The position numbers and the translations under genes are program-made. From assembly GCA_009909065.1 (NCBI GenBank), contig JAAANZ010000057.1, forward strand, positions 1 to 64,000: DNA of 64,000 nt, in the 5' to 3' direction. Shown here in pieces: positions 1,315 through 64,000 of this stretch. Every line of letters starts with the position of its first letter. Position 1 is the first letter of the stretch. The notes below the pieces were generated by a model, which did not search any database, was not told the DNA's origin, and was given only the letters and a program-made list of their open reading frames with translations. Source of the DNA: Alphaproteobacteria bacterium (GTDB lineage: Bacteria; Pseudomonadota; Alphaproteobacteria; Caulobacterales; Hyphomonadaceae).

Positions 1315-3552
1315 TCAGCCATTGAGCCGGCCGGACCGCGGGAAACCCCTCGGCACAGGTTTGCCGGCCTGGGCGCGCTTTCCGATCCAGTCCTCCCAGT
1401 TGGGAAAGCCGCGAAGGCGACCGCTCGGCTCAACGACCATGAGCCCGTCCTCACTGTCGAAGATCATGGCATCCTTCAGCTTGTCGCCGCCGCGGAAATT
1501 CTGCAGTTTCACGCCCTTGCCGCGCGTCATCTCGGGCAGTTCCTCGCGCTCGAAAATCAGCAGTTTGCGATTGGTGCCGACCACCGCCACACGGTCTCCC
1601 AGGGCGCGCTCACAGACCACAAGCTTGGCGCCCTCCGGCAAGGTCACGACGGATTTCCCGGCCTTGCGGGTGGACACCAGCTCGCTTTCGTCAACCACGA
1701 AGCCATAGCCGACATCAGAACACACGATCCGCTTGCGGGTCTCGTCCAGCTTGAACATGGCGACAATCTCGACATTGTCCTCAAGCTCCAGGGACAGCCG
1801 GATCGGCTCGCCATGGCCGCGACCGCCCGGCAGCTTGTCGGCCGCCAGCGTGAAGGCGCGCCCGTCAGAGGCCATCAGGATCAGCTTGTCGGTGCTCCAC
1901 ACCTCGACGGAGGCGAAGAGACTGTCGCCTTCCTTGAACTTCGCCGCCGCGGCATCGAGGCCATGCCCCTTCAGAGCGCGGATCCAGCCCTTCTCGGACA
2001 GGAGCGCGGTATAGGGCTCTTTCGGCGTGGAGGCTTCCAGCGCCGCGTCGAGATCGATATCGGGCGCATCGCCAAAGCCCGCGCGGCGACGGCCCAGATC
2101 GGTGGACGGACCGAGGACATCGCGCGCGGCGCGCAGCTCGTCGCCGACACGGCCCCATTGCAGCTCCTCGGAATCGAGCAGCGCCAGGATCCGGTCGCGC
2201 TCCTGCGACAGGCTCTCATGCTCGCGCTTGAGCTCCATTTCCTCGAGCTTGCGCAGGGCCCGCAGGCGCAGATTAAGGATCGCCTCGGCCTGGATGTCGG
2301 TGATGGCAAACCGCTCGATCATGACGGCTTTCGGTTCATCTTCCTCGCGGATGATGCGGATCACCTCATCGATATTGAGGAAGGCCACGATATAGCCGTC
2401 GAGGACGTGCAGGCGCTTTTCGATCTTGTCGAGCCTGTGACGCGCGCGGCGCAGGGCCACCTCGCGGCGATGATCGAGATAGGCGCGCAGGACCTCGCGC
2501 AGGCCCATGACCTGCGGCACGCCGTCATTGAGCACATTCATGTTCAGCGAGAAGCGCGTTTCCAGGTCGCAGGACTTGAAAAGGCTCTCCATCATCACGT
2601 CCGGCTCGACGGTCTTGGCACGCGGTTCGAGGATCAGGCGGATATCCTCGGCACTCTCGTCACGCACATCGGCCAGAAGCGGGATCTTCTTCTGCTCGAG
2701 GAGTTCGGCCAGCTTTTCGATCAGCTTGCCTTTCTGCACCTGGAACGGGATTTCGCTGACAACGACCTGCCATGTGCCCCGCCCCAGATCCTCGACATGC
2801 CAGCGCGCGCGCATCCGAAAGCTGCCGCGTCCGGTTTCATACGCCTCCTCGATGGCCGAGCGGCTCTCCACGATCACCCCGCCGGTGGGGAAATCCGGTC
2901 CCGGCATGACGCCGAGCAATTCGGAAACCGGCGCCTGCGGGTTATCGATCAGCAGAAGCGCGGCATCGATCACTTCGGCCGCATTGTGCGGGGGGATCGA
3001 GGTGGCCATGCCCACGGCGATGCCAGAGGCGCCATTGGCCAGCATGTTGGGATAGCCGGCCGGGAGGACCGCCGGCTCCTCGCCGAGCTCGTCATAAGTG
3101 GCGCGGAAATCGACCGCATCCTCGTCCAGCCCCTCCAGGAGGAGGCGGGCCGCCTCGGTCATCCGGCTCTCGGTATATCGCATCGCCGCGGGGTTATCGC
3201 CGTCGATATTGCCGAAATTGCCCTGCCCGTCGACCAGCGGGTAACGCACCGAGAAATCCTGCGCCAGGCGCACCAGCGTGTCATAAATCGCATTGTCGCC
3301 ATGCGGATGGTAATTGCCCATAACCTCGCCGACGATCTTGGCGCATTTGCGATAGGCGCCTTCGGGATTGAGCTTGAGCTCGCGCATCGCATACAGGATG
3401 CGCCGCTGCACCGGCTTGAGCCCGTCGCGCACATCCGGCAGCGCCCGCGAGGTGATCGTGGACAGGGCATAGGCCAGATAACGCCGCGAAAGCGCCTCGT
3501 TCATCGGCTCATTGATGATGCGGCCGGATTCATCATCGGTGAGGTCTGACAT
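1315..3552 (-). CDS. parC: DNA topoisomerase IV subunit A
   Basis: [33 protein letters not shown] ... [48 protein letters not shown]; short C-terminal domain. Confidence 0.96.
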
Positions 3553-3743: not shown

Positions 3744-5642
3744 ATGACGGGATGGCCGATGACCGAAAGAGCCGCAACCACGCAGGACAGAAAGACTCCA
3801 CAAGAGGACACGCGCGCACTGCCGGGCGATTCCGGCTTCCAGCCCGAAGAAGTATTCGAAGAGTCCAGCAGGTCAGGCGACCGGGTTGGCGCGCGCCAGG
3901 CGGGCGGCGCCGCGCCCTCCCGGCGGCGGGAAGCCGGGCAGCTGGACACGCTCGACCGGTATCTTCGCGGGGCCGTCTCGCGCCAGACCGGCGGTGTTTC
4001 CTACTGGGCCGCGCTCCAGGCCTGGGAGGACTGGGCCTATCACATGGCCGGCTCGCCGCTTCGCCAGGCGCGCCTGGCCATGGAAACCGCGATTACGGGC
4101 TGGAGTCTGGCGACACAGGCCATGCTGCCCCCTCCCCTGCGCGCCGCTTATCCCGCCTTCACAGCCGAGCGCGGCGATCACAGGTTTGAATCGCCGGCGT
4201 GGAAACGCGCGCCCTATGACCTGTTTGCCCAGACCCATCTGGCGCGCGAGGCGCTGTGGAAGACCGCAACCGAGCCGCTCGCCGGGGTACGCGCCCATCA
4301 TATGCGCCGGGTCTGCTTCATGGGGCTGCAGATGCTTCGCGCCGCATCACCCTCAAATCTCGCCATGACCAATCCCGATGTGCTCGATACGATCCGGGCA
4401 AGCGGCGGGCAATGCCTGCTGCGCGGGGCGCAGCTCTATCTCGATGACCTGCAGACCCTGGCGCGCGACGGGAACCTGGCCGGGCGGGTGACCCATGAGA
4501 TCGGCAAGGATATCGCCGCCACGCCGGGCAAGGTCATCTATCGCAACCGGCTCATCGAACTGATCCAGTATTCGCCTCAAACCGATGAGGTCGAGGCCGA
4601 ACCCATCCTGATCGTGCCGGCCTGGATCATGAAATACTATATTCTCGATCTCTCCCGGCACAATTCGCTCATTCGCTATCTCGTCGAACAGGGCTTCACC
4701 GTCTTCTGCATCTCATGGCGAAACCCGGATTCGAATGACCGGGACCTGACTCTTGAAGATTATCGCCGCGACGGCGTCATGGCGGCCCTCGATACCGTGT
4801 GCGAGGCGGTGCCGGGCGAGAAGATCCATGCCGTGGGCTATTGTCTCGGCGGCACGATCCTCTCCGTCGCCGCCGCCGCCATGGGCCGCGATGAGGATGA
4901 GCGCCTGGCCACGATGAGCCTGCTTGCCGCCCAGACCGATTTTACCGAGGCGGGCGAGCTGATGATGTTCACCGATGAAAGCCAGATTGCCGCGCTGGAG
5001 GATCTCATGACGGTGCAGGGCTATCTCGATGCCGCGCAGATGTCGAGGGCGTTTTATTATCTGCGCGCCAATGACCTTGTCTGGTCGCGCATGGTCGAGC
5101 GCTATCTGAAGGGAGTTGACCGCGAGATCAGTGATTTCGACGCCTGGTTCACCGACCCGACCCGGATGCCGGCGCGCATGCACTCGCAGTATCTCAGATG
5201 GCTTTTCGAGGAAAACCGCCTGGTCCAGGGCTATTTCGAGGCCGGCGGCCGCCCGGTGACACTCAAGGACATCACCATGCCCGTCTTCGCGCTCGGCGCC
5301 GAGAAGGATCATATTGCGCCCTGGCGCTCGGTTCACAAGATAGGCCTGTTCGCAGGCGCCGAAACCGATTTCATCCTCAGCGGTGGCGGACACAATTCCG
5401 CGGTTGTCAGCCCGCCGGCCAAGCGCGGAGCCTATTACCGGCAGAAGACGATCGGCGATTGCGACGATTATATCGGCCCGGACGCCTGGGTGGATGACGC
5501 GCCGCGACTGCCGGGGTCCTGGTGGCCGGCCTGGCGTGACTGGCTGCGCGAGCGCTCGTCGGGTGAGCGTGCCGGTGCGCGCATGCCGGATGCGAGCCGC
5601 GTGATCTGCGAGGCTCCGGGACGCTATGTTCACCAGCGGTGA
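3744..5642 (+). CDS. phaC: Class I poly(3-hydroxyalkanoate) synthase
   Basis: PHA synthase N-terminal region and lipase-like box GYCLGGT; C-terminal GAEKDHIAPWRSVHK...GGGHNSAVVSPP. Start could also be 3759. Confidence 0.93.
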   Translation: MTGWPMTERAATTQDRKTPQEDTRALPGDSGFQPEEVFEESSRSGDRVGARQAGGAAPSRRREAGQLDTLDRYLRGAVSRQTGGVSYWAALQAWEDWAYHMAGSPLRQARLAMETAITGWSLATQAMLPPPLRAAYPAFTAERGDHRFESPAWKRAPYDLFAQTHLAREALWKTATEPLAGVRAHHMRRVCFMGLQMLRAASPSNLAMTNPDVLDTIRASGGQCLLRGAQLYLDDLQTLARDGNLAGRVTHEIGKDIAATPGKVIYRNRLIELIQYSPQTDEVEAEPILIVPAWIMKYYILDLSRHNSLIRYLVEQGFTVFCISWRNPDSNDRDLTLEDYRRDGVMAALDTVCEAVPGEKIHAVGYCLGGTILSVAAAAMGRDEDERLATMSLLAAQTDFTEAGELMMFTDESQIAALEDLMTVQGYLDAAQMSRAFYYLRANDLVWSRMVERYLKGVDREISDFDAWFTDPTRMPARMHSQYLRWLFEENRLVQGYFEAGGRPVTLKDITMPVFALGAEKDHIAPWRSVHKIGLFAGAETDFILSGGGHNSAVVSPPAKRGAYYRQKTIGDCDDYIGPDAWVDDAPRLPGSWWPAWRDWLRERSSGERAGARMPDASRVICEAPGRYVHQR

Positions 5643-56450: not shown

Positions 56451-58001
56451 ATGTCTGCAGATACCGATCCGATTGCGAGGGCGGCCCGCAACCCGCGTGA
56501 GCCGGCCATACTGGTCTGGAGCCGCGAGGCGATGCATGCCTGGCCCGTCGACCGGCTGGACGAGATACCCGCCGGAACGCCCGCCTATTCCGTGCCGCCC
56601 GTGTTTCCCGAGTGGCTCGGCGACGCCGGTTTTCGCGCAGCCCACGGGTTGAGATTTGCCTATGTCGTCGGCGCCATGGCGCGCGGGATCGCCACGGCGC
56701 AAATGGTGATCGAGGCCGCGCAGGCAGGCGGCATCGGCTTTTTCGGCAGCGCCGGCCTGACGATCGAAGAGATTGATGCCGCCATAGGCACTATCGCGGC
56801 CCGGCTTGAGCCGCAGGGGCTGGCCTGGGGGGCCAACATCATCCACACCCCACAGGAGCCCGGCCACGAGGCCGGGGTCGTAGACCTGTTTATCCAGCGC
56901 GGCGTGCGGCGGGCTTCGGCCTCGGCCTATCTGCGCCTGTCGCCGGAGATCGTGCGCTACACCGCCGCCGGTCTGAGCCGCGGCCAGGACGGTGCGATCC
57001 ATCGTGCGAACCATGTGTTCGCCAAGGTCTCACGGGCCGAGGTGGCCGCCCAGTTCATGTCGCCGGCGCCGGATAGGATGCTGCGCGAACTCGTCGCTGG
57101 CGGCCGCCTGGACGCCGCACAGGCCGAACTCGCCGCTCGGGTTCCCGTGGCCGCCGAGATCACCGCGGAGTCCGACTCCGGCGGGCATACCGACAATCGC
57201 CCGGCCGCTCCGCTTTTCAGCTCGCTGGCCGAAACACGCCGCGAGGTCTGCGCGCGGCATGGCTGGCCGGAGGACCTCATCCGGATTGGCCTGGCCGGCG
57301 GGATCGCCACGCCGCAAGCGGTCGTCGCCGCTTTCCAGATGGGCGCAGCCTATGTTCTGACCGGCTCGGTCAACCAGGCCTGTGCCGAATCCGGACTGTC
57401 CGGAGCCGGCCGCGAAATGCTTGCGACGGCCGGCCCGGCCGACGTGATGATGGCGCCGGCGGCCGACATGTTCGAACAGGGCATACGCGTGCAGGTGCTC
57501 AAGCGCGGGACACTGTTCGCTCCGCGCGGGGAGAAACTCTATGCAATGTATCGCGGCGGCGCGCGCCTCGATACGCTCTCGCCAAAAGATGCCGAATGGC
57601 TTGAGGGGGTCCTCGGCGAAACCCTGCCCCAGGCCTGGCAGGCCACCCGTGAATTCCTTGCGTCGCGCGCTCCGGCCACACTCGCGCAAGCCGAATCCGA
57701 TCCGGCCCGACAGTTCGCCCTGATTTGTCGGCGCTATCTGTTCCAGGGCGCGCAATGGGCGCGAGACGGCGACATTCGACGAAAGTCCGATTTCCAGATC
57801 TGGTGCGGTCCGGCAATGGGGGCGTTCAACTCATGGGTGAAAGACAGCCCGCTCGAGCCGGTTGAAAACAGGACAATTCGCCAGGTCACACTCAACCTCA
57901 TGGAGAGTTCTGCAGTTCTGACGCGCGCCAGCCAAATGCGTTCGATGGGACTTGTCGTTCCGGCCGGGTTGTTTAACGTAAAGCCGATAGAATATTCATA
58001 G
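56451..58001 (+). CDS. pfaD: PfaD-type enoyl reductase / nitronate-monooxygenase-like component of a PUFA/polyketide synthase
   Basis: GLRFAYVVGAMARGIATAQMVIEAAQAGGIGFFGSAGL, GLAGGIATPQAVVAAFQMGAAYVLTGSVNQACAESG, PAADMFEQGIRVQVLKRGTLFAPRGEKLYAMYR. Confidence 0.92.
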   Translation: MSADTDPIARAARNPREPAILVWSREAMHAWPVDRLDEIPAGTPAYSVPPVFPEWLGDAGFRAAHGLRFAYVVGAMARGIATAQMVIEAAQAGGIGFFGSAGLTIEEIDAAIGTIAARLEPQGLAWGANIIHTPQEPGHEAGVVDLFIQRGVRRASASAYLRLSPEIVRYTAAGLSRGQDGAIHRANHVFAKVSRAEVAAQFMSPAPDRMLRELVAGGRLDAAQAELAARVPVAAEITAESDSGGHTDNRPAAPLFSSLAETRREVCARHGWPEDLIRIGLAGGIATPQAVVAAFQMGAAYVLTGSVNQACAESGLSGAGREMLATAGPADVMMAPAADMFEQGIRVQVLKRGTLFAPRGEKLYAMYRGGARLDTLSPKDAEWLEGVLGETLPQAWQATREFLASRAPATLAQAESDPARQFALICRRYLFQGAQWARDGDIRRKSDFQIWCGPAMGAFNSWVKDSPLEPVENRTIRQVTLNLMESSAVLTRASQMRSMGLVVPAGLFNVKPIEYS

Positions 58002-61000: not shown

Positions 61001-61904
61001 GGCGGCGCGCCATGCCGATTTCCTGCAGGCCATGACATCTGCGCATACCGCTTTCATGAACGCCGCATCAGGGCTGCTCGGCGCCGCCCCGACGAGCGCG
61101 CCCGCGGCTCACCCGAGGCTGCAGCCGCAGGCCGCCCCGGCCCCGACCCCGGCCCCGACCCCGGCCCCGGCGCCCGGCCCGGTCCCGGCAAGCCCTGCGC
61201 CTATGCCGGCACCGATGGCCTCGGAAACACCATCCAACGGGCCCGCAACCAATGGCGCCGCGGGCCATGCCATCCCCTCGCCGCCAGCGGCGCCCCCGGC
61301 CGCGTCGACGGCGTCGATGCCATCCCCGTCGGCCTCCGACCCGGTCGCGCTTGTCACGAAGCTTGTCGCCGAGAAGACCGGATACCCCGACGAAATGCTG
61401 GATGCGGACATGGACCTGGAAGGCGAGCTCGGCATCGACTCGATCAAGCAGGTCGAAATCCTGTCGGCGCTGCGCGAGGCGCGTCCGGATCTGCCCGAGG
61501 TCGCCCCCGAACGTCTCGCCGAGCTGCGCACGATCCGTCTCGTGGCAGATTTCATCGCAGGCGCCCCGCCAGCCCCCCATGACGCGCCGGACCCGGCACA
61601 AATGGCGCCCGCCGCCCAACCGGCCGCGCCCGCGCCGCCCCCGGCTCAGCCGGCCCTTGCCGAAGCCGATGGCGGGGCAATCACCACCGATACGGTGCGC
61701 GCGCTCATCGCCGAGAAGACAGGTTACCCACCCGAAATGCTGGAAGAGGACATGGACCTCGAGGGCGAGCTCGGGATCGATTCCATCAAGCAAGTCGAGA
61801 TCCTGTCGGCGCTGCGCGAATCCTATCCGGACCTGCCCGAGATCGAACCGGAGCGGCTGGCGGAACTGCGCACGATCGGGCAGATCGCCGGTTTTTTTCA
61901 CTAG
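58008..61904 (+). CDS. pfaA: PfaA-like multimodular synthase KS-AT-ACP-ACP; ORF terminates at TAG before the KR module
   Basis: KS DAACASSLSAL / EGHGTGT / IGHTKAAAG; AT GHSFGE; two ACP motifs LEGELGIDSIKQVEILSALRE; GTG-type start in ORF track. Confidence 0.9.
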   Translation: MSGVTADIRTGGREPVAIVATGAIFPGRGTTDGFWRDIFEGVDTLSQVPETHWLSEDFYDPDPASPDKTYSRRGGFLSPQAFDPVAFGIPPQALETTDTSQLLALLAAKRLLATAERESGGRLDKARTSVVLGVASATELIGQMSGRLSRPAWIRGLREAGLAEDEVQDIASKIEANFPEWQESTFPGLLGNVVAGRIANRLDLGGSNYVTDAACASSLSALQLALHELRAGDSDTVITGGVDTLNDILMFMCFSKTPAFSPSGDVRPYSAQADGTLIGEGIGLLALRRLSDAERDGNRIHALIRGLGGASDGKGTAIYAPLAGGQAKALRRAYEQAGYGPDTVTLVEGHGTGTLAGDRTELRGLHDVFAPQGAVSQPWCAIGSVKSQIGHTKAAAGSASLLKVAGALSRRTLPASIKVDRPNDVLCDGSPFYINTSARPWVHRPDAPRRASVSSFGFGGSNFHVTLEEYRGPNAARPSRVASHELVIFSAESEAGLAEQLRDAMRQATSEDDLVRLASASHERADPKAPARAAITAANPQEFQTRAEKLAAHLQASSDRRGPLGAGIAWSSAPPAAGKLAFLFSGQASQYVGMGAGLAMAFPDALRVWDEALLNPGLDGLDLHNLAFPPTPFSEEEALAQAHRLSQVRHAQPAIAAVTLAQLAVLERLGLQADMCAGHSFGEIMALHHAGAFDASSALSMAAVRARVMADAAEGTQGAMMAVQTGAEHARSLLPEDCGVVVANDNAPGQSVLSGPCEAIDAVGPLFEAKDVKARKLDVGTGFHSELVADACAPFADALAEYEISAPRRPVIANGTASAYGDDPGQIRDRLARQIAKPVRFRECVEALYDRGARIFVEVGPGNVISGLARNTLADRDVQIVALDTKRGDGIADFLSGLGQLFSLGRALDFAALFDDLPPPPEPEPPGKFTVMLSGANYNKPYPPEGGSAALPPPNTTAARTPEMTEAKTTHGHAAPSPVAATPAPAPASEAERVYHDLAARHADFLQAMTSAHTAFMNAASGLLGAAPTSAPAAHPRLQPQAAPAPTPAPTPAPAPGPVPASPAPMPAPMASETPSNGPATNGAAGHAIPSPPAAPPAASTASMPSPSASDPVALVTKLVAEKTGYPDEMLDADMDLEGELGIDSIKQVEILSALREARPDLPEVAPERLAELRTIRLVADFIAGAPPAPHDAPDPAQMAPAAQPAAPAPPPAQPALAEADGGAITTDTVRALIAEKTGYPPEMLEEDMDLEGELGIDSIKQVEILSALRESYPDLPEIEPERLAELRTIGQIAGFFH
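61139..61170 (+). repeat. Short tandem repeat (12-bp GGCCCCGACCCC, ~2.7 copies) encoding Ala-Pro linker
   Basis: GGCCCCGACCCC GGCCCCGACCCC GGCCCCGG, translating APTPAPTPAPAP between AT and first ACP. Confidence 0.75.
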
Positions 61905-61939
61905 GGGGCGATGCTGACAGGGCCGTTGCGCCTCGCCCC
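61892..61939 (+). promoter_or_regulatory. Candidate -1 slippage/frameshift signal: T7 slippery heptamer, 6-nt spacer, 7-bp potential stem
   Basis: GG T_TTT_TTT CAC TAG; GGGGCGA(61905-61911) complementary to TCGCCCC(61933-61939). Confidence 0.4.
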
Positions 61940-62023
61940 GAACAGCCGGCCGATATCGCCGACGCGCCCGCGGTCTACCAGGCGCGGCCCGTCCGCCTGT
62001 CGACGAAAGGGGGCCTGGCGGAA

Positions 62024-63367
62024 TTGCCGGCTCCGCCGGTGGCCGTCATCTCGCCGGACGACATTTTCAGCGAGACACTGTCCGCCCGGCTGGAGCGCGC
62101 CGGGTGCGACACGCAGGGGCCTGCCGCGATCGAGGGTTGCGCAAGTGCCATCCTTGCCGGTGCCCTTTTCGAGACCGACCCGCTTGCCACCTCTTGGGAC
62201 CTGCTTGAAACCGCCCGCAACCTGCGCGCGGGCGGCACTCGCGAACTGGTCTTCCTGCAGGATACCGGCGGGTGTTTCCGCTTCGGAGGGGATGGCGGCT
62301 GGTGCGGCGGCGTGGCCGGCCTGGCCCGCACGGCGCGGCGCGAATGGCCCGACATGGTGATCCGCCTGATCGACATTCCCGCCCATGCGATGACGCCCGA
62401 TGAGATCGGGAAAGCGGTTCTCGCCGGCCTGGCCTGCGGCGTCGAGGAGGTCGGCATCTGCGGCGAGAGCGACCCGCTGATTCCCGGTCATGTCCGCGCT
62501 TCGATGCCTGGCAAGGCCCGTCTCGCGCAGGAGCCGGGCACCTGGATCGTGTCGGGCGGGGCGCGCGGTGTGACATCGGACTGCGTGATGGCACTGGCGC
62601 GGCGCACGGGCGGAAGGTTCGCCCTGCTCGGTCGCTCCGGGCTGGCGCCCTGGCCCGAAGGCCTGCCGCAAACCGATGATCTTGGCGAACTGCGAAAGAA
62701 GCTGGCACAGGCGGCCCTGGCGCACGGGGAAAAACCCAGGCCCGCCGAGATTGACGCGGCCGCCCGTCATGCGCTGGCCGGACGCGAGATCCGCGACACG
62801 CTGAGCGCGATCGAGGCGGCCGGCGGCGAGGCGGCCTATCTGCCCTGTGACATCGCCGACCCCGAAGCCGTGGCGCGTGCCGTCCGGGAAGCCGAGGCGC
62901 GTTTCGGCTCCGTCACCGGCCTTATTCACGGCGCCGGCGTGATCGCCGACCGCCGAATGAGCGACAAGACATTCGGGGATTTCGCAAAGGTCTATCGCAC
63001 CAAGATAGACGGGCTACGCGCCCTGCTCAGCGCCGTCGATACCTCCAAGCTCACGCATATCGCCCTGTTCTCCTCGGCCGCCGCGGCGTTCGGCAATCCC
63101 GGCCAGGGCGACTATGCGCTGGCCAATGAGGCGCTCAACCGCGTGGCGCACAAGCTCAGGGCCGATCTGCCAGGGGCCCGGGTGAAGAGTTTCAACTGGG
63201 GGCCCTGGGATGGCGGCATGGTGAGCGAGGCCCATGCCCGGCATTTCGAGGCGCTCGGCGTGGCGCTGATCCCGCGCCCAGCCGGGGCCGACCTGTTTGC
63301 CGGGCACCTGCTTTTCGGCGATCCGGACGAGGTCGAACTCCTGGTCGGCGAGCCCTGGCCGGCATGA
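62024..63367 (+). CDS. Ketoreductase (KR) module of PfaA-like synthase, in the -1 frame relative to 58008..61904; first candidate start is TTG
   Basis: GTWIVSGGARGVTSDCVMALARRTGGRFALLGRSG...LIHGAGVIADRRMSDKTFGDF...SSAAAAFGNPGQGDYALANEALN...SFNWGPWDGGMVSEAHARHFEALGVALIP; frame open back through 61892 with no ATG/GTG. Confidence 0.85.
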   Translation: MPAPPVAVISPDDIFSETLSARLERAGCDTQGPAAIEGCASAILAGALFETDPLATSWDLLETARNLRAGGTRELVFLQDTGGCFRFGGDGGWCGGVAGLARTARREWPDMVIRLIDIPAHAMTPDEIGKAVLAGLACGVEEVGICGESDPLIPGHVRASMPGKARLAQEPGTWIVSGGARGVTSDCVMALARRTGGRFALLGRSGLAPWPEGLPQTDDLGELRKKLAQAALAHGEKPRPAEIDAAARHALAGREIRDTLSAIEAAGGEAAYLPCDIADPEAVARAVREAEARFGSVTGLIHGAGVIADRRMSDKTFGDFAKVYRTKIDGLRALLSAVDTSKLTHIALFSSAAAAFGNPGQGDYALANEALNRVAHKLRADLPGARVKSFNWGPWDGGMVSEAHARHFEALGVALIPRPAGADLFAGHLLFGDPDEVELLVGEPWPA

Positions 63368-64000
63368 GTATGGCTTTCGAACCGATCGCCATTGTCGGGC
63401 GCGGCTGCGTGCTGCCGGGTTGCCTCACCCCCGCCGCCCTGTGGGAGGCGGTGGCCGACCGCCGCAGCCTGCTGACCCCGACGCCGGCGGGCCACTGGGG
63501 CCTTACCGCCACAGAGGAGTATCTCGGACAGCGGATGGGCGGCTATGTCACCGGCTTCGATTCGGTTTTCGATCCGGCCCGCCACGATCTCGGCGCGCTT
63601 GATCCGATGCGTCTCGACCCTGTTTTTCGCTGGCCGCTTCATGTTGCGCGCGCGGCCATGGACGAAGCCGGCCGCCCCGAACCCGCGGCCGACCGGTTCG
63701 GCGTGGTCCTTGCCAACCTTTCCTATCCGAGCCGTGCAAAGTCCGATTATGCCGGCGATATCTGGCTGGACGGCGAAAGCGCAGTCGATCCGCGCAATGC
63801 ATTCAATTCGGGCCTTCCGGCGAAACTGGTCGCCCGCGATCTCGGCGCGGCCGGAGGGGCGTTTGCGCTTGATGCGGCCTGCGCATCCTCGCTCTACGCG
63901 CTTGCCATTGCCTGCCGCAAGCTCCAGTCGCGCAAGCTCGATCTCGCCCTGGTCGGCGCGGTCAACGCCGCTGACAATCTCAATCTCCATCGCGGTTTTG
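63364..64000 (+). CDS. Second ketosynthase-containing synthase (PfaC-like or other Pfa/PKS subunit), truncated by window end
   Basis: ATG overlaps KR stop (GCATGAG); translation MSMAFEPIAIVGRGCVLPGCLTPAALWEAVADRRSLLTPTPAGHWG...FALDAACASSLYALAIACRKLQSRKLDLALVGAVNAADNLNLHRGF; absent from ORF track because it has no stop in the window. Confidence 0.85.
   Translation, partial: MSMAFEPIAIVGRGCVLPGCLTPAALWEAVADRRSLLTPTPAGHWGLTATEEYLGQRMGGYVTGFDSVFDPARHDLGALDPMRLDPVFRWPLHVARAAMDEAGRPEPAADRFGVVLANLSYPSRAKSDYAGDIWLDGESAVDPRNAFNSGLPAKLVARDLGAAGGAFALDAACASSLYALAIACRKLQSRKLDLALVGAVNAADNLNLHRGF

Follow-up and report, generated by a model that had tools for sequence, protein, structure and literature searches.

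A conserved site for very likely programmed −1 ribosomal frameshifting in pfaA of the Hyphomonadaceae

The pfaA gene of the Hyphomonadaceae very likely contains a conserved programmed −1 ribosomal frameshift site. Comparison of genomes shows that the slippery site, spacer, stop codon and hairpin are conserved, that the frame under selection changes, that no alternative start codon is conserved and that the arrangement occurs only in this family.

The site was studied in a window of 64,000 nucleotides, by which we mean the whole stretch of DNA analysed. In its gene cluster, pfaD is followed by pfaA and then by a KS-AT-DH gene (Table 1). The zero-frame codons at the end of pfaA are GGT (61890-61892), TTT, TTT, CAC (61899-61901) and TAG (61902-61904), and the −1 frame continues for 489 codons without a stop, being open to 63364. 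A preliminary description, made from sequence alone, had reported a T7 tract, a TAG 3 nt after it, a 6-nt spacer, complementary arms and a −1 frame open into the ketoreductase (KR), and had stated that no ATG or GTG occurs in this frame before a TTG at 62024, which is its first ATG, GTG or TTG codon. When the bases were re-read, all of these claims held exactly.

Table 1. Features of the pfaA junction and its surroundings in the window
Feature	Position	Strand	Evidence
pfaD, PUFA synthase enoyl reductase family, upstream neighbour in cluster	56451..58001	+	TIGR02814, 525 bits
pfaA zero frame, KS-AT-ACP-ACP, ending GFFH-stop; short product 1298 aa	58008..61904	+	Pfam KS, AT, 2x PP-binding; TIGR02813 (PfaA) 8-890
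Slippery heptamer T_TTT_TTT (zero-frame GGT TTT TTT)	61892..61898	+	T_TTT_TTY in all 53 distinct sequences of the family
−1 frame: linker, N-terminal KR-associated region, KR domain; long product about 1786 aa in all	61898..63367	+	Pfam KR at 213-437 of P0001; TIGR02813 1913-2266; S-Y-N motif
6-nt spacer: one codon (CAC) and zero-frame stop TAG	61899..61904	+	Identical length in 53/53
Putative stimulatory hairpin: outer stem GGGGCGA (61905-61911) with complementary TCGCCCC (61933-61939), plus inner stem	61905..61939	+	Pair counts, covariation; covariance model R1 match 61892-61949
Start of downstream KS-containing gene	63364..64000	+	Pfam; sequence just beyond the window: KS, AT, three FabA-like DH stretches (pfaBC-like)

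The two frames match distinct, non-overlapping regions of TIGR02813, and the PfaA domain order KS-AT-ACP(n)-KR is present across them. The scores of the halves were 967.2 bits (zero frame) and 290.9 bits (−1 frame), both below the whole-protein cutoff of 1010.1. The single open reading frame usual for PfaA was not observed, the two frames being joined only by a −1 change; a single frame is usual but not required if frameshifting works. The second ACP match covers residues 1228-1296 of 1298, and the short product stops two residues later, so that both ACPs are complete in it.

The family sample comprised about 57 species genomes from three genera, several of them single-contig and including Hyphomonas chukchiensis, H. 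oceanitis and Henriciella. A KR was present in 57 of 105 family genomes, and the KR-bearing frame was short in every one. The junction was read in 61 loci, which gave 53 distinct sequences with a single pattern: ...(I)A(D/G/N)FF-x-stop at the same position relative to the ACP, with the −1 frame continuing. A slippery heptamer of the form X_XXY_YYZ in the correct phase, a requirement of a programmed −1 frameshift cassette, was found in all of them, as T_TTT_TTT in 37 and T_TTT_TTC in 16. The zero-frame stop after the spacer codon is TGA in 21, TAG in 17 and TAA in 15. The T preceding the Phe pair is invariant despite the differing amino acid (codon GAT in 51, GGT in 1 and AAT in 1), and the first Phe codon is always TTT, compared with 30% of Phe codons upstream in the same open reading frames. 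No further in-frame T_TTT_TTY was found in 47,564 codon positions upstream in these frames. The junction pattern is well beyond chance, since all 53 sequences share the heptamer class, spacer and stop placement and nearly all share the hairpin, without a second in-frame heptamer.

A cassette of this type also calls for a hairpin or pseudoknot at about 5-8 nt from the heptamer, and this is met here by pair counts and covariation. In the family sequences the hairpin begins directly after the stop codon, 6 nt from the heptamer. The stem alignment contained 46 distinct sequences, from which the broken copy of one genome (G050, described below) was excluded. The outer 7-bp stem was 95.0% paired, compared with 52.8-64.6% when the partner was slid. 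Its covariation score was 0.240 versus 0.184 and lay above all 500 shuffles, and the whole hairpin behaved likewise. The shuffle control leaves relatedness in, and more weight is therefore carried by the slid control and the types of pairs. Pair-preserving changes in the outer stem include G-C, G-U and A-U at columns 17-45 and C-G, U-G and U-A at columns 18-44, and double changes in the inner helix give G-C, C-G and A-U at columns 23-39. The only indel within the hairpin is of 3 nt and lies in the loop. The mean minimum free energy at the site was −26.0 kcal/mol versus −12.9 kcal/mol for other segments of these genes; the hairpin of the single, GC-rich sequence in Table 1 folds at −19.5 kcal/mol, with a z of only −1.4 against shuffles. 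A strong Shine-Dalgarno-like stimulator upstream (−5 kcal/mol or better) was observed in none of the 53 sequences, where the energy minimum, about −3 kcal/mol at positions −17 to −13, is weak. Such a stimulator is optional in bacteria and does not define a frameshift cassette.

Conservation of the site together with both frames is likewise expected of such a cassette, and this was observed. Differences were counted in 13 close pairs, not all of them independent. By codon position they were 5/2/135 upstream (zero frame), 162/98/370 downstream (−1 frame) and 6/2/6 across the hairpin. Around the site the codon-position bias thus passes from the zero frame to the −1 frame, and from this it appears that translation changes frame at this point. 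Third positions differed at 135 of 767 sites upstream and 370 of 1547 downstream, but at only 6 of 182 within the hairpin, so that synonymous change is held down at the stretch whose RNA is required. Apart from G050 (L130) and L154, which reaches a contig end, every sequence has a −1 frame of 467-502 open codons, and these two are also the exceptions to the S-Y-N motif of the KR, present in 51 of 53. In 16 sequences a −1-frame stop directly precedes the first TTT, which bars entry into the KR frame from upstream. In 42 of 53 the KR frame has no ATG, GTG or TTG close to the junction, and no start position is conserved, the first ATG ranging from codon 1 to codon 419.

Outside the family, ACP and KR lie in one frame at 81 of 83 callable loci. 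Relatives from other families of the same order carry fused genes whose open frames span about 2,000-2,800 codons. Of the 57 KR-bearing family genomes, 54 gave exactly one match each to the covariance model R1, and the other-family genomes of an order sample of 299 genomes gave none. As R1 matches its training genomes by construction, the informative results are the single match per genome and the absence elsewhere. A search of plasmids returned only distant matches. The three KR-bearing family genomes without a match are G052 and G055, where the KR lies at a contig start, and G050 (L130/L160; region 461-530 of L160). In G050 the heptamer and the 5′ arm are kept and the 3′ arm of the hairpin is altered or lost; a stop closes the −1 frame after 13 codons, and the KR sits in the zero frame beyond a TAA. 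It is the one family genome that combines a −1-frame block with loss of the 3′ arm. This exception probably reflects decay or an assembly error, but another route of expression is not excluded.

Four splits in other organisms are recorded here as separate observations. In Nostoc sp. NMS4 (L041, about 5451-5473) the ACP and KR frames differ by −1 and an A9 run lies at their meeting point; slippage, frameshifting and assembly error are all candidates. In a SAR324 MAG (L064, about 3427-3476) a −1 change interrupts this same linker between ACP and KR, with an A10 run. Another MAG (G830, L184) has an A-run of about 10 just before a zero-frame TAA, at about position 1186, with the −1 frame leading into the KR; in the rest of its family, genomes with the KR show either longer frames or a break near a contig end. 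In G796 (L173) a −1 change splits pfaA at about position 1144 on the reverse complement, with zero-frame GCC CCA AAG (C_CCA_AAG) upstream of the stop, and its family holds no second genome with pfaA.

Direct evidence is lacking both for slippage and for the two proteins; slippage, its efficiency and the role of the isoforms are inferred. In the proposed mechanism, ribosomes on pfaA mRNA would meet U_UUU_UUY while tRNA-Phe occupies both the P and the A site, and the hairpin six nucleotides ahead would make them pause, so that a fraction slips back by one base. Measurements in E. coli place U_UU.U_UU.Y among the efficient −1 motifs (PMC4066793). Ribosomes that do not slip would translate a single further codon before terminating, giving KS-AT-ACP2, whereas slipping ribosomes would read on into the ketoreductase and give KS-AT-ACP2-KR. 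One mRNA would then set the ratio of KR-less to KR-bearing PfaA. A PfaA without KR is biochemically plausible, because split pfaA genes are known (PMC3098273). A bolder reading is that the frameshift ratio tunes the iterative synthase: complexes would be mixtures of KR-less and KR-bearing PfaA, and translation would set the ACP:KR stoichiometry and possibly the frequency of beta-keto reduction. This would amount to translational control of megasynthase programming, and we regard it as possible while leaning slightly against it.

Besides programmed frameshifting, the preliminary description had left open RNA-polymerase slippage, a phase-variable tract, a lesion and a homopolymer sequencing error. 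Programmed −1 frameshifting is strongly supported by the comparative evidence. In the slippage variant, RNA polymerase would add a U in the T tract and fuse the frames in part of the mRNA. The T7 tract of 37 sequences speaks for this, as does the fact that polymerase slippage can also be stimulated by hairpins (PMC5009743). However, the 16 remaining sequences keep the same architecture with T6C only, and T6C is short for polymerase slippage. Moreover, the heptamer phase and the 6-nt spacer do not vary, a constraint set by ribosomes and not by polymerase, and the RNA hairpin is kept at ribosomal spacing. We consider transcriptional slippage very unlikely. Phase variation, a lesion or an error specific to the source genome could be suspected, since the source is a draft genome of 133 contigs and 80% completeness. 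The same split at the same base was nevertheless found in all family orthologues read, including the single-contig genomes G022, G044, G048, G058, G065, G077 and G078, and no fused or T8 version occurred among the 53 family sequences. Had every orthologue shown an in-frame linker and no T7 or T8 tract, this would have spoken against the preliminary proposal; within the family the opposite was found. These three options are all but excluded, and we rejected them on the evidence of the orthologues.

It could also be argued that ACP and KR are two separate genes and that the KR is made by re-initiation or internal initiation and acts in trans, as in Type D pfaA1/pfaA2 (PMC3098273). KR-only proteins occur naturally in split pfaA clusters (PMC3098273), and in some genomes a GTG or ATG lies in frame within a few dozen codons. 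Against this stand the unconserved start positions and their absence near the junction in most sequences, and the invariant T_TTT_TTY phase and the hairpin would be left unexplained. This explanation seems very unlikely to us, and an independent KR start was dismissed for want of a conserved start codon.

If programmed frameshifting is correct, gene callers split pfaA across a whole marine bacterial family, heterologous expression of such clusters depends on working frameshifting, and cells purposely make a synthase without ketoreductase. Ordinary bacterial enzymes seldom rely on deeply conserved −1 frameshifting. In the open-access literature searched, we found no prior report of frameshifting in a PUFA/fatty-acid or polyketide synthase; subscription journals and supplements were outside its scope. 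No PKS or PUFA synthase cluster is named in the main text of the GeneTack paper (PMC3711429), of PRFect (PMC10274946) or of the survey of E. coli motifs (PMC4066793). The frameshift claim is directly testable in cultured Hyphomonas.

Several known systems resemble the pfaA site in part. Type D pfaA of Psychroflexus has KS-AT-ACP and KR in different reading frames, and Type H pfaA of Agrobacterium vitis is also split (PMC3098273). Unlike the pfaA described here, both are presented as two genes, and the relevant passages mention no frameshift signal (PMC3098273). IS3/IS1-type transposases likewise use a −1 shift into a downstream domain to make a longer fusion, and U_UU.U_UU.C is among the IS motifs (PMC4066793), but these are genes of mobile elements, whereas pfaA belongs to a megasynthase gene cluster. 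In dnaX of E. coli and relatives, a heptamer with a hairpin a few nucleotides downstream gives two products per gene. E. coli dnaX uses A_AAA_AAG with an upstream Shine-Dalgarno sequence; the pfaA site, in contrast, has U_UUU_UUY and no strong Shine-Dalgarno sequence. The frameshift product of E. coli dnaX is the shorter one, while that of pfaA would be the longer; in Chlorobium dnaX the arrangement is predicted to be the reverse of that in E. coli (PMC5009743). The carboxysome gene csoS2 is, like pfaA, a metabolic, non-mobile bacterial gene, with a −1 shift, a 3′ structure and no apparent Shine-Dalgarno sequence (PMC5009743). Among cellular genes, dnaX and csoS2 are the closest counterparts of the pfaA site, with the difference that frameshifting shortens their proteins (PMC5009743) and in pfaA would add a catalytic domain.
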